Shown piece after piece: positions 31,599 to 38,578 of a stretch of DNA of 38,781 bases; position 1 is the stretch's first letter; each line of letters begins with the position of its first letter. The stretch lies in contig JAAZKF010000111.1 in the NCBI GenBank assembly GCA_012799975.1, positions 1-38,781 on the forward strand, read 5' to 3'. This stretch comes from Burkholderiales bacterium. Lineage in GTDB: Bacteria > Vulcanimicrobiota > Xenobia > Xenobiales > Xenobiaceae. The notes beneath the pieces were generated by a model, which searched no databases, was not told where the DNA came from, and was given only the letters and a program-made list of their open reading frames with translations. The position numbers and the translations under genes were made by a program.

Positions 31599-33218
31599 CT
31601 AGATATCTTCCTCCGGCCTCGGCTCGGTGCTCTCACGGGTGAAGGAGAGCCCGAAGAACAGGATCGCCAGGGCCAGGTATCCGGAGGAGAACTGGTAGGG
31701 GATTGCCCGCAGGAAAGGCTCTGGAATATTCCACGGCAAGTACATGTTGCCATCCGGATAGACCGAGTGGATCACGCCGAAGAAGGCCAGGCCCGCCAGG
31801 ATAACCAGGTAGACGGCTGCCTGGCGAAGTTTCCGGTCGATCAACAGGGCCACCCAGGCGCCCCAGAGCATGGAAGTCAGGATGAAACCATTGCCCAGGG
31901 CGATGGTGACCAGGTCGGCGTTCAGGAACTGCTCGGTCCTGGTGGCAAGTTCTTTTACCATGTTTGCGAACTTGGCGGCATAGCCCATCTGGATCTCCAC
32001 CACCCGCGCCAGGTTCGGGAATAAGGCCATGGCGACGGCCGGGCCGTGGATAGGGGGGCAGGTCTGGAAGGCCTGGACGACGATATCCAAAGCCACGAAG
32101 ATCAGGATCGGCGCCAACACCGCTTTGGGGATGGCCGCCACGATGAAGCCGATGAAGCCCAGCATGCCGCCCAGGCCCACGAAAAGGCCGGTCAGCAAGG
32201 TGTAGCCTGCCCGGCTGCCCATGGTCTTGTAGGCCGGCTGGCCGATGTAGGGGGTGGACTGGGCCACACCGCCGCAAATTCCGGCTACCAAAGTTGCGAT
32301 GGCCTCGGTCAGCAGTATGTCCCGGGTGTTGTAGTCGTCGCCGGCAACTCGGGCGCTTTCGGTGACGTTGATGCCGCCCACCACCGTCAGGATGGCGAAC
32401 GGAATGGCGATGGGCAGGAACATCAGGCCATCACGCAGGCCGTGCACGAACCCCAGGTTGGGGATGGGCAGGCCCATCGTCAGTTCCATCTTGGGCCAGA
32501 CGATCTCACCCCCCACCAGGCCGTAGGCGGCCAGGGGGTAGTACAGGGCCGTTCCGAGAACAACTGCCGCCAGGACGCCCGGGATGTTGAAGGGAAGGCG
32601 GATCCGGGCCACCAGGGTGTAGAGGATCAGACCCAATGAAATCAGGCCCACCAGCGGGGCGCCCATGACTTCCAACAGCGGTATGAAGCCGATCAAGGCC
32701 AAGCCAACCCCGGCCAGCGAACCCAACAGACCGGCCTGGGGGATGATGCGCTGCAGCCAGTTGCCGGCAAAGGAAAAGACGGTCTTGAAAATGCCGATGT
32801 AGACCATCACGGCCATGCCGACATACCAGGTCTGCATGGCGGCTGCCTGGTCATCCATGCCCTGGCCCTGATACATCTTGAAGGCCGGCCCCAGGACCGT
32901 GAAGGCCACGCCGATGGTCGAGGGGGTATCCAGTCCCAGCGGCATGGCGGTGACCTGCCGACCGGTCCGCTTGGCCAACTGGAAGGCCATCCAGGTGTAG
33001 ACCAGGTCGCCGAACAGCACACCGAAGGCCGTCCCGGGGAACATCCGGGTGAAGACGATGTCGGCGGGCATCTCGAAGGTCTGGATCAGGATCATGGCCA
33101 TGAACGACAAGACCGTGACGTTGTCGAACATCAGGCCGAAGAACCCGTTCAGGTCTCCGGGGACGAACCAGCGGTAGCGAAACCCCTCCTTCGGATCCAT
33201 GACAGCGGACTGGGACAT
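31599..33218 (-). CDS. NCS2/AzgA-like (xanthine/uracil-type) permease
   Basis: Polytopic; MPLGLDTPSTIGVAFTVLGPAF, GGINVTESARVAGDDYNTRDILLTEAIATLVAGICGGVAQSTPYIGQPAYKTMGSRAGYTLLTG. Confidence 0.75.
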   Translation of the reverse strand: MSQSAVMDPKEGFRYRWFVPGDLNGFFGLMFDNVTVLSFMAMILIQTFEMPADIVFTRMFPGTAFGVLFGDLVYTWMAFQLAKRTGRQVTAMPLGLDTPSTIGVAFTVLGPAFKMYQGQGMDDQAAAMQTWYVGMAVMVYIGIFKTVFSFAGNWLQRIIPQAGLLGSLAGVGLALIGFIPLLEVMGAPLVGLISLGLILYTLVARIRLPFNIPGVLAAVVLGTALYYPLAAYGLVGGEIVWPKMELTMGLPIPNLGFVHGLRDGLMFLPIAIPFAILTVVGGINVTESARVAGDDYNTRDILLTEAIATLVAGICGGVAQSTPYIGQPAYKTMGSRAGYTLLTGLFVGLGGMLGFIGFIVAAIPKAVLAPILIFVALDIVVQAFQTCPPIHGPAVAMALFPNLARVVEIQMGYAAKFANMVKELATRTEQFLNADLVTIALGNGFILTSMLWGAWVALLIDRKLRQAAVYLVILAGLAFFGVIHSVYPDGNMYLPWNIPEPFLRAIPYQFSSGYLALAILFFGLSFTRESTEPRPEEDI

Positions 33219-34181: not shown

Positions 34182-34220
34182 AGAGAAGAGCCCGGAGCGC
34201 CTGCCGGGCTCTTCTCTTTT
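34182..34220. terminator. Rho-independent terminator
   Basis: AGAGAAGAGCCCGG-AGCGCCTG-CCGGGCTCTTCTCTTTT. Confidence 0.9.
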
Positions 34221-35356
34221 CAGTTTCCGTGAACCACCGGGAGGTGGACGGTGAAGGTCGTCCCCTCCCCCGGGGTGCTCTGCACCTCGATCCGGCCTCC
34301 GTGAGCCTCGACGATCTCCAAGGCCACCGACAGGCCCAGACCGGTGCCCCCCAGTTCTGCTCCTGGCCCATCCAAGGTGCGATAGAAGCGTTCGAATATG
34401 CGGGGAAGGTCCTCCGAGGTGATCCCCACCCCGTCATCCTGGACCACGACCAGGACCTCCCGGTCCTGAAAAGCCGTGCGAACCAGAACCTTGCCTTCCC
34501 CACGCAGACCGGTGAAGCGGACGGCGTTATCGACCAGGTTGACCAGGGCGCGTTGCAGCAGGTCGAAGTCCAGAGTCAACCAGGGCAGGTCTTCGCCATG
34601 TTCGATCTGAAGTTCCACGCCCTTGTTGGCGGCCACCGGGCGAAACATCTCCAGCGCCGCTTCCACGATGGGTTCCAGTCGGCCACGAGTCCGGAATATG
34701 GTCGGAGCCTCTCCGGAGTGGGCCGTCTCTTCCAGGGACATGACCAGGCGGACCAGACGATTGGTCTCCTCATTGATGATCTGCAAGAAGCGATGGGTGA
34801 TCTCGTGGTCCCGATAGCTCCCCTCCAGGAGGGTCTCGACGAAACCCTTGATGGAGGTCAGCGGCACCGAGATACGCTGGATCATGTCCTCGATGATCTG
34901 GTCTAGACCCCGCTCGATCTTCTGGACCCCGGCCATGTCCCGTAGCACCGCGATGGCTCCCAGATTCCGCCCCCGACTGGTGCGCACCGGTGTCATCTGG
35001 ACCGCGAAGAGCCGATTCCCGGGGAAGACCATGACCTGCTCGCTGGGCACGGGGTCGCTGGACTTGACCAGGCCGATGAAGGCGCGGGTAAATTCGTCCA
35101 GAGGCAGGACCTCCAGAACGCTCCTCCCTATCGCTTCCTTGGGTTTCACGCCGAAGAGGCGACCAGCCAGGCGATTGAAGACGCGCAGGTCGCCGCTGCG
35201 ATCTATCCCCAGGCAGGGGTCCGAGAGATTCTCGATCAAGGCATCAGCAAGCTGTCCTTCAATGCGGGGAGGCAAGGACTCAGGACCTCCGCAGGACCAG
35301 GAGGGGACCAACAAGGGAGAGGCCACGCCCGATCCAGAAAGAGAATTTTCCCCCAA
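34220..35356 (-). CDS. PAS-containing PhoR-like histidine kinase homologue with degenerate H-box (His to Gln)
   Basis: PAS GIDRSGDLRVFNRLAGRLFGVKPKEAIGRSV; QIIEDMIQRISVPLTSIKGFVETLLEGS; intact N/G1/F/G2 ATPase boxes; no obvious TM. Confidence 0.88.
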   Translation of the reverse strand: MGENSLSGSGVASPLLVPSWSCGGPESLPPRIEGQLADALIENLSDPCLGIDRSGDLRVFNRLAGRLFGVKPKEAIGRSVLEVLPLDEFTRAFIGLVKSSDPVPSEQVMVFPGNRLFAVQMTPVRTSRGRNLGAIAVLRDMAGVQKIERGLDQIIEDMIQRISVPLTSIKGFVETLLEGSYRDHEITHRFLQIINEETNRLVRLVMSLEETAHSGEAPTIFRTRGRLEPIVEAALEMFRPVAANKGVELQIEHGEDLPWLTLDFDLLQRALVNLVDNAVRFTGLRGEGKVLVRTAFQDREVLVVVQDDGVGITSEDLPRIFERFYRTLDGPGAELGGTGLGLSVALEIVEAHGGRIEVQSTPGEGTTFTVHLPVVHGN

Positions 35357-35365
35357 AAAAAGAAA

Positions 35366-36064
35366 TCAATCGGTCTGCTCTTCGAACTGGAACTTGTAGC
35401 CGATTCCGTGCACAGTCTTGAGTTGCCGAGGAGAAGAGGGTTCATCCTCGATCTTCTGACGCAGACGCCTCATGTGCACGTCGACCGTCCGCGTATCCCC
35501 CAAATAATCGTATCCCCAGAGCTGCTCGAGCAGAAAGTCGCGCGTGAAGACCTTGCCGGGATTGGTCGCCATCAACTTCAGCAGGTCGAACTCCTTGGGT
35601 TTGAGCTCTACCACCTGCCCGTTCTTGCGCACCTCGTGCTTGACCAGGTTGATGCTCAGGTTATCGAAGGTGATCTCGTCCTTCTCTTCCGAACGGGCAC
35701 TGGTCCGGCGCAGAACGGCCTTGACCCGGGCCACCAGCTCGCGGGGTGAGAACGGCTTGGGCACATAATCGTCAGCCCCCAGTTCCAAGCCCAGGATCTT
35801 GTCGATCTCCTCGCCCTTGGCGGTGGCCATGATGATGGGGGTCTTCATCTCACGCCGCAGGATCCGGGTGACCTCCAGACCGCCCTGTCCTGGCAGCATG
35901 ATGTCCAGGATGATCAGGTCGGGGCGGTCCTGGCGTGCAACGTTTACGGCTTCGATGCCATCATAGGCACAGATGACTTCGTACCCCTCCTTTTCGAGGT
36001 TGTACTTGATCAATTCGACGATGTTCCGTTCATCATCGACCACCAGAATCCGCTCTTTCGCCAT
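35366..36064 (-). CDS. PhoB/OmpR-family response regulator
   Basis: ILVVDDERNIVELIKYNLEKEGYEV, LIILDIMLPGQGGLEV, DDYVPKPFSPRELVARVKAVLRR; winged HTH. Confidence 0.94.
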   Translation of the reverse strand: MAKERILVVDDERNIVELIKYNLEKEGYEVICAYDGIEAVNVARQDRPDLIILDIMLPGQGGLEVTRILRREMKTPIIMATAKGEEIDKILGLELGADDYVPKPFSPRELVARVKAVLRRTSARSEEKDEITFDNLSINLVKHEVRKNGQVVELKPKEFDLLKLMATNPGKVFTRDFLLEQLWGYDYLGDTRTVDVHMRRLRQKIEDEPSSPRQLKTVHGIGYKFQFEEQTD

Positions 36065-36113: not shown

Positions 36114-36890
36114 TCAGGGCAGACAGATTCCTGCCGCCATGCGCCCCGTCACCTTCTGGTCTCTCCGGTAGGAATAAAACAAATCCTCGCGGCACGAGGT
36201 GCAGACCCTGCTGATACAGACCTGTGCCTCGGGCACCCCGACGTCCAGGAGGATTTCGAGGTTGGCACGCCAGAGATCGACGTTGAACCTATTCCCCTGG
36301 CCCCGCACCAGTTCCTCCCCGGGAAACCGGCGCAGGAAGGGGTCGGCCACATCCTCATGCACCTCAAAGCAGCACGGTCCGATGGCCGGGCCTATAGCCA
36401 CCTGAAGATCGGCCGCACATGAGCCGTATTCTGCAACCATCGCGCAGACGGTGGCCCGAGCCACGCCCTGGAGGGTTCCCCGCCAACCGGCATGCGCCAG
36501 GCCGACGACCTTGCGTACGGGATCGTGGAACATAATCGGGACGCAATCCGCGGTGGTGATCATCAGCGCGACCCCGGGCCGATCCGTGATGCAGGCATCA
36601 CCTATCCGCCTCGTAGGAGGCTGCGATTCCAACCGCACGACCTGGGCTCCGTGCACCATATTGAGAATGGGGACCAGCGGAAAACCCCACTCCCGCTCCA
36701 GGCGAAGCCGGTTCTCGTGGACCCGCCGGGGGTGGTCGCAGGTCGTCTGCCCGATGTTCAGGGCCTGGTAGGGCCCCTGGCTGACGCCTCCCAGGCGAGT
36801 CGAAAAACCGTGAGGCACAACCAGGTTGGGGAAGGTCAGGTAACGGGCCTGTCGACCCTTAAGGACAGCGGGCGCGAGGTCGTCGGACAT
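36114..36890 (-). CDS. pgeF: Polyphenol oxidase/YfiH-family (laccase-domain) protein
   Basis: HGFSTRLGGVSQGPYQALNIG, MVHGAQVV, TTADCVPIMFHDPVRKVVGLAHAGWRGTLQGVA, AIGPAIGPCCFEV. Confidence 0.9.
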   Translation of the reverse strand: MSDDLAPAVLKGRQARYLTFPNLVVPHGFSTRLGGVSQGPYQALNIGQTTCDHPRRVHENRLRLEREWGFPLVPILNMVHGAQVVRLESQPPTRRIGDACITDRPGVALMITTADCVPIMFHDPVRKVVGLAHAGWRGTLQGVARATVCAMVAEYGSCAADLQVAIGPAIGPCCFEVHEDVADPFLRRFPGEELVRGQGNRFNVDLWRANLEILLDVGVPEAQVCISRVCTSCREDLFYSYRRDQKVTGRMAAGICLP

Positions 36891-38578
36891 GGGTGGGAGG
36901 CGATTCGGGCTGCTCGCGCCCGGTCCTTCAAGAGCAGATCTACAGACCAGGGCGAGGCCAGGTGACCCCATGGCAGAGGCCAGGCAGAATCCCTTGGGGT
37001 GAAGGCTTCCCGGGCCACGTCGATCCCTTCCTCCTCCAAAGCCTGCATCCAGGCCCGGAAAGAGGGGTTCCGAAAAACCGAGGCGATGACCCTGGCAAAG
37101 CGGCGATCCCCTCGAGCCAACAGCCCCTGGAGCAAGGCCCAGCGGGGCGACTCGGCGTGCACCTGGACTCCGCCCTCTCCGCCCAGGGCCCGTTCGACCT
37201 TCTTCATCCGGGCCGAGACCATCTGGCGGGAGGCCATGGCCTCCCATTGGAACGGGGTGGCCGGCTTGGGCACGAATTGACCCATCGAAAGCGTGATGCG
37301 TCCCCCCGAGCGTCCCTCTTCGCACTGGATCCGACGTGTCCGGCGAACCAGCTCGACCAGGGCTTCCACGTGCTCGTCCTCCTCCTCGGGCAGGCCGATC
37401 ATGGAATACATCCGCAGATTCCGGACACCTTTGCGGAAGACCCGACAAGCTGCATCCAGATACTCGTCGCCGGTGAATCTTTTGTTGATCGCCCGGCGCA
37501 GACGGTCGGAGCCGACCTCGGGAGCCAGGGTCAGGGTCTGCGCTCCACCGCGAACCAGGGCCTCCAGAAGCGAATCCGGAAGGCGATCTGCCCGCAGCGA
37601 GGAGAAGGAGACCGACCCTCCACGGTCCAGAAGTCGTTGACAGAGATCGTCGATCTGGGGATGATTACCGACCGAGGCCGAAATCAGGCCCACTCGATCG
37701 GTCGATTCCAGCAGGTTCTCAACAACCTGCCAGAGGCGGTCCACCGGTTGCCACCGGACCCTGGGATAGGAGAATCCGACCGTGCAGAAGCGACACAGGT
37801 AGGGGCACCCCCGTGAGACCTCGACCAGTCCGGAACGCCCGAACTCGGTGTCGGGGGTCAGGATCTGCGAATAAGCCGGGGACTCTTGGAAGGCTGCCGG
37901 GGTCCGATGGCAGGGCTCGAGCCGGGGGGGTGCCCCGGGTGTCGCCACCAGCCCCGCAAAGCGCCCGTCTTGGTAGCGCGGTTCATAGAGCGAAGGGACG
38001 TAGAAGCCCGAGAGCTGGGCCAGGGCCTCCAGACGAGCGCGTCGGTCCCGCTGTGCCCCCCGGCGCAGAGATTCGATCAGGGGCCCGACCAGGCCTTCGG
38101 CCTCGCCCAGGGCGAAGAGGTCGACGAAATCGGCGAGGGGCTCGGGGTTGAGCAGGGTGATGGCCCCTCCCACCAGCACGAGGGGCTGGTCCGCGGTCCG
38201 CTCCTCGGAGAAGATTGGCAATCCCGCCAGATCCAGCATCAAGGCCAGATGGGGGTAGTCGTTCTCGTAGGACACACTGAAGGCGACCAGGTCGAAGTCG
38301 CCCACTGGTCTCTGGCTCTCCAGGGTGAAGAGCTGCCTGCCGCAGTCCCGATATTCGCGGAGTTCTTCCGGGTCGGGGAGGAAGAAGCGCTCGCATGTGA
38401 CTCCGGGGGTCCCATTGAGCATGGCATAGACGGCCTGCATCCCCAGGTTGGACATGCCCACGAAGTAGGTGTTGGGATAACCCAAGGCCACCCGCACATC
38501 CCCTCCCGAGGCGGGCCGTAGCAAGGCCGTCTCCGCAGCCAGGCGACGCTCGGCATTCTGGATCAGATGCCACGACAT
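36836..38578 (-). CDS. Radical SAM protein (B12-binding-type N-terminus, TIGR03960-like)
   Basis: GLVEVSRGCPYLCRFCTVGFSYPRVRWQP (CxxxCxxC), SFSSLRADRLPDSLLEALVRGGAQTLTLAPEVGSDRLRRAINK, MYSMIGLPEEEDEHV. Confidence 0.88.
   Translation of the reverse strand: MSWHLIQNAERRLAAETALLRPASGGDVRVALGYPNTYFVGMSNLGMQAVYAMLNGTPGVTCERFFLPDPEELREYRDCGRQLFTLESQRPVGDFDLVAFSVSYENDYPHLALMLDLAGLPIFSEERTADQPLVLVGGAITLLNPEPLADFVDLFALGEAEGLVGPLIESLRRGAQRDRRARLEALAQLSGFYVPSLYEPRYQDGRFAGLVATPGAPPRLEPCHRTPAAFQESPAYSQILTPDTEFGRSGLVEVSRGCPYLCRFCTVGFSYPRVRWQPVDRLWQVVENLLESTDRVGLISASVGNHPQIDDLCQRLLDRGGSVSFSSLRADRLPDSLLEALVRGGAQTLTLAPEVGSDRLRRAINKRFTGDEYLDAACRVFRKGVRNLRMYSMIGLPEEEDEHVEALVELVRRTRRIQCEEGRSGGRITLSMGQFVPKPATPFQWEAMASRQMVSARMKKVERALGGEGGVQVHAESPRWALLQGLLARGDRRFARVIASVFRNPSFRAWMQALEEEGIDVAREAFTPRDSAWPLPWGHLASPWSVDLLLKDRARAARIASHPCPTTSRPLSLRVDRPVT

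Follow-up and report, generated by a model that had tools for sequence, protein, structure and literature searches.

Four genes on the minus strand of the window (the whole stretch of DNA that was analysed, 38,781 nucleotides) encode, in order, a radical SAM protein, PgeF, a response regulator, and a sensor kinase homolog without a phosphoacceptor histidine. The radical SAM protein (36836..38578) is TIGR03960-like by profile search, and synteny makes it the first gene of a conserved cluster. PgeF (peptidoglycan editing factor, Cu-oxidase_4; 36114..36860) was identified from TIGR00726 (178 bits, cut-off 141) and from synteny; it is the upstream neighbor of the regulator. The regulator (35366..36064) belongs to the OmpR/PhoB family, and a profile and residue check confirmed that its receiver is intact (D10, D11, D54, T81, and K103 are all kept), as a preliminary description of this locus had stated. 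Also on the minus strand of the window (31599-33218) is a 539-amino-acid permease-like membrane protein that has no match in Pfam or NCBIfam. It is conserved (84% in the sister species and 63% in genome G005).

The His-less kinase

The kinase homolog (34220..35275, minus strand, 351 amino acids) is a soluble protein with the domain order PAS-HisKA-HATPase_c and no transmembrane segment. The input PAS domain (34934..35245) scored 47.4 bits against Pfam, HisKA scored 30.7 bits, and HATPase_c scored 107 bits. Translation most likely starts at the TTG at 35275, rather than at 35356: in the three sister species this codon is ATG, and GGAGG lies about 10 nucleotides upstream. The predicted structure confirmed the fold (mean pLDDT of 84), but the domain arrangement in the model is uncertain (pTM of 0.56), so we made no use of interdomain geometry.

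The minus-strand frame reads ...EDMIQRISVPLTSIKGFVETLLEGSY..., and the codon at the HisKA His position is CAG, encoding Gln (plus-strand positions 34877-34879). In a profile alignment to VicK (PDB 4i5s), this column pairs with the His of HELRTP. The rest of the H-box has decayed as well: the window's sequence is M-I-Q-R-I-S-V-P-L-T, in which residues 134-139 (I-Q-R-I-S-V, 34865..34882) replace S-H-E-L-R/K-T, with Arg for Glu at H+1 and Val for Thr at H+4. In contrast, the four boxes of the ATPase domain that an orthodox autophosphorylating HisKA kinase should have are all present: the N box (NLVDNA, 34523..34540), the G1 box (DDGVGI, 34421..34438), the F box (FERFYR, 34379..34396), and the G2 box (GGTGLGL, 34331..34351). 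Thus, the central claim of the preliminary description, that the His is lost while the ATP-binding domain is intact, holds.

That description had also labeled the pair as PhoR-like and PhoB-like, which is poorly supported. The scores fall short of the phosphate-regulon equivalogs (176 bits against a cut-off of 334 for TIGR02966 and the kinase; 254 against 296 for PhoB, TIGR02154, and the regulator). Also, we found no match to PhoU (PF01895) in the window's genome, which is 96% complete, while 13 of 14 control genomes were positive. We therefore rejected a phosphate-regulon identity. By sequence, the solved relatives nearest to the kinase are VicK (4i5s) and HK853; by fold, the nearest is a WalK model (9a5d). 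The best score for the regulator was to YycF/WalR. These scores are also below the cut-offs (213.5 bits against 725 for WalK and 289.5 against 340 for YycF), and PnpS scored 235 bits. Overall, the kinase family is nearer to WalK/VicK than to PhoR, with WalK/WalR as the nearest kind of system rather than one to which it belongs. WalK/VicK and PnpS/PhoR are its nearest intact relatives by profile and fold and share the PAS-DHp-CA order, but the window's kinase differs from them in lacking a transmembrane segment and an acceptor His, and it misses every equivalog cut-off.

Distribution and history of the histidine loss

We will refer to the family of the window's kinase as HK1. Among 18 genomes from the same class as the window, 16 encode an HK1 ortholog, and none of these has His at the acceptor position: seven have Arg, six have Gln, two have Glu, and one has Ala. 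(The kinase match in G013 is a different kinase and was left out of this count.) The codons vary as well (CGG, CGC, CAG, CAA, GAG, and GCC). In contrast, all ten HK1 orthologs that come from elsewhere in the phylum (seven other families) retain the His. The preliminary description had asked whether Gln is conserved among orthologs. The absence of His is conserved, but Gln is not. It had also noted that His in close relatives would count against a genuine loss; the sister species carry Arg. Nor does another histidine seem to have taken over, as no other His column is conserved among the orthologs.

In a maximum-likelihood tree, the His-less proteins form one side of a single branch (support 83/86, and present in 82% of bootstrap trees). 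Judging from this tree, the loss of His is one change, in the ancestor of the class. The Gln in the window is most likely a recent step from Arg, as the other three species of the window's genus have CGG at this codon, so "His to Gln", as the preliminary description put it, does not describe the last step. In a scan of named genomes, the kinases among the matches listed were 24-39% identical and their adjoining regulators were at most 58% identical, and His was present wherever the H-box aligned. Our literature search for earlier His-less kinases turned up DivL, ChrS, FasBC, and cases of the RetS/GacS type, none of them from this family.

Sixteen of the class genomes contain both the regulator and the His-less kinase, and in the other two (G013 and G004) neither gene was found. 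The regulator protein is 100% identical in four species at dS values of 0.24-0.64, and it is 92-94% identical across families of the order. This extreme conservation, along with the constant PgeF neighbor, suggests that the regulator has a central function, perhaps in the cell wall, although PgeF as a hint of cell-wall control is a lead only.

Conserved parts and selection

To see which parts of the protein decayed with the His, we compared mean column entropies between the ten His-bearing orthologs and nine non-redundant His-less orthologs. The H-box rose from 0.43 to 1.96 bits, while the adjoining half of DHp helix 1 (PLTSIKGFVETLLEGSY, 34814..34864) was nearly unchanged, at 0.40 bits in the His-bearing proteins and 0.45 bits in the His-less ones. 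Helix 2 went from 0.62 to 0.80 bits, the N box from 0.70 to 1.08, and the G1 box from 0.59 to 1.01; the F box (0.78 and 0.71) and the G2 box (0.55 and 0.53) did not rise. The decay is confined to the H-box; elsewhere in the DHp domain, conservation is close to that of the His-bearing orthologs. In HK853-type kinases, the preserved half of helix 1 is the surface on which the regulator docks.

The ATP-contact residues are the most rigid part of the protein. Every full-length sequence has N248, D251, N252, D282, G284, G286, G311, G312, and G316, and this includes the copy in G010, which is fast-evolving, sits on a long branch, and has an eroding docking helix. (A253, I287, F296, R301, and L317 in the same boxes are also invariant.) That the ATP site has been kept in G010 even as the docking helix erodes points to an ATP-dependent role. 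Within the genus, pairwise dN/dS for the His-less kinase is 0.08-0.16. Together with the residues kept, these low ratios imply strong purifying selection on the kinase for something besides accepting phosphate. A replaced acceptor across a lineage, in a protein under purifying selection, is the pattern of a DivL-type protein, and the window's kinase, which has no acceptor, is strictly speaking a pseudo-histidine kinase; it very probably still binds ATP.

The phosphatase motif E/DxxT/N, whose place is immediately behind the His, is absent from all 16 of the His-less orthologs (the window's protein has RISV), which counts against the phosphatase-like role that the preliminary description had offered. 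Already in six of the ten His-bearing HK1 orthologs (for example, L049 and L051-L053), the Thr at H+4 is replaced by Ala or Val, so the loss of phosphatase function in HK1 may have preceded that of the His in the window's class.

HK2 and the role of the His-less kinase

Outside the class, the cluster in most genomes is radical SAM - PgeF - regulator - HK1 - HK2, where HK2 is a second kinase that adjoins HK1 and has an intact H-box. In most copies, HK2 has a degenerate GGDEF-like N-terminal domain followed by HisKA and HATPase_c. Among the HK2 genes, which include L056:6463-7734 and L043-L059, the GGDEF-like N-terminus has no GG(D/E)EF motif in the class copies that we read, which suggests that HK2 joins a sensor domain that has degenerated to a kinase that is intact. 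Within the class, HK2 was detected in 13 of 18 genomes, and HELRTP is present in all 11 whose H-box was read. In G015 and G017, HK2 has stayed close to HK1, and in the window's genome it is unlinked (G000:C350:25462-26730), with HELRTP intact and with a dN/dS within the genus of 0.13-0.15. G013, which is 97% complete and in which neither the regulator nor the His-less kinase was found, does have HK2.

We propose that the His-less kinase is an ATP-binding, acceptor-less partner that acts on HK2, either as a modulator or by phosphorylating it in trans, with one regulator shared between them; we would give this about an even chance of being right. The ancestral five-gene cluster had two kinases, HK1 and HK2, and one regulator. 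When HK1 lost its phosphoacceptor in the ancestor of the class, HK2 kept its own, and it would now carry phosphate to the regulator. HK1 would have become an ATP-dependent regulatory subunit that senses via its PAS domain and pairs with HK2, so that its ATPase domain either phosphorylates the His of HK2 in trans or alters the conformation of HK2. Docking of the His-less kinase on the regulator might be an added route. ATP binding, the pairing, trans-phosphorylation, and the effect on the regulator and its direction are what we infer from the sequences. The preliminary description had supposed that another kinase phosphorylates the regulator, and HK2, as its operon neighbor outside the class, gives that idea a specific candidate. 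Another piece of evidence is that, in the docking half of helix 1, HK2 is the nearest to the His-less kinase in the window's genome, at 12 of 15 positions, although the margin is thin (the next kinase has 11 of 15). Against our proposal, HK2 is unlinked in the window's genome, and it was not detected in G007 (90% complete) or in four less complete class genomes, which makes an obligate pairing of the two kinases doubtful. Also, the phosphate could come from another kinase, or the regulator might act unphosphorylated.

Other systems offer partial precedents. In Corynebacterium glutamicum, the pseudokinase ChrS forms a heterodimer with its intact paralog HrrS, which phosphorylates the regulator (PMC9491836). 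This resembles the pairing of a disabled kinase with an intact paralog that we propose here from sequence, but ChrS was disabled by a frameshift in its CA domain that evolved in the laboratory, and not by a natural, lineage-wide loss of His. In group A Streptococcus, the ATPase and acceptor functions are proposed to be divided within the FasB/FasC heterodimer (PMC12675982). That system also has two kinase homologs and one regulator, and it is a precedent for such a split. However, the proposed pseudokinase FasC lacks the needed ATPase domain and provides the His, whereas the kinase described here has kept its ATPase domain and lacks the His, and the Fas proteins are membrane-bound and of another kinase type.

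The main rival to our proposal is that the protein works in the manner of DivL, a pseudo-histidine kinase of Caulobacter (PDB 4q20): its docking helix would bind the regulator, perhaps in its phosphorylated form, and would report its state or sequester it, with no catalytic use for the ATPase domain. We regard this as possible, if on balance improbable. DivL itself is known to work so (PMC4211667), and its structure is among the fold matches. DivL likewise has PAS, DHp, and CA domains and a lineage-conserved non-His residue at the acceptor position, with the other boxes kept, and neither protein is expected to have autokinase activity. The conservation of the docking half of helix 1 and the constant co-occurrence with the regulator also speak for this explanation. 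On the other hand, DivL can do without its ATPase domain, which has a weak affinity for ATP (PMC4211667), whereas the ATP site here is rigid and outlasts the docking helix in G010. Furthermore, with the receiver fused to a DNA-binding domain here, an output that reaches past the regulator would need a further partner, and none is known. The acceptor position also differs, as it is Tyr nearly throughout in DivL and is Arg, Gln, Glu, or Ala here, with the whole H-box decayed; and DivL serves CckA/DivK, whereas this gene adjoins an OmpR-family regulator. DivL is not an ortholog of the window's kinase, as it matches only at the level of the fold and of HisKA, with 28-30% identity.

The absence of HK2 from G007 and its unlinked position in the window's genome would also fit a pathway that uses a different kinase (for example, one of the other HisKA proteins: HisKA is matched 19 times in the window's genome, and 17 of these matches have the His) or a regulator that is controlled mainly without phosphorylation. 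This seems unlikely because all of the catalytic residues of the receiver are kept and because HK2 is the ancestral operon partner. With its ATPase and docking parts intact, the protein might still be an enzyme that acts on the regulator, whether it removes phosphate or works as a kinase with another acceptor residue. We consider this very unlikely, given the missing phosphatase motif, the lack of another conserved His column, and a replacement residue that is not fixed. Finally, CAG is one base away from CAC or CAT, and the G010 copy is on a long branch, so one might suspect a sequencing error or a decaying relic. This is the least probable of all: 15 other class assemblies also lack the His, with varied codons, which rules out a sequencing error. 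We rejected a pseudogene on the dN/dS ratios and the open reading frames (a contig end truncates one copy), and four families all retain the ATP and docking residues.

To return to our proposal of a partner for HK2, a bolder form of it is that, throughout the class, acceptor-less HK1 does the sensing while its ATPase domain serves the His of HK2 in trans, and that this split kinase controls a near-invariant, possibly cell-wall-linked master regulator. This version is doubtful, but if it is true, then a system of two kinases and one regulator was turned into a split kinase throughout a bacterial class. Lineage-wide loss of the acceptor with a rigid ATP site is rarely documented in natural histidine kinases, and DivL is the main example in the literature that we searched. 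The loss at the base of the class, the His-bearing orthologs, and the probable intact partner would make up a before-and-after series of a kinase becoming a regulatory subunit. The system also makes it possible to test directly if, in nature, the ATPase domain of one kinase serves another in trans.

The window's genome encodes a second HisKA protein without His at the acceptor position (L076, G000:C75:15631-15804, minus strand). Its H-box reads GVVAELATPI, with Ala in place of the His; its open frame is 469 amino acids, and a receiver match lies in a frame of equal length right beside it.
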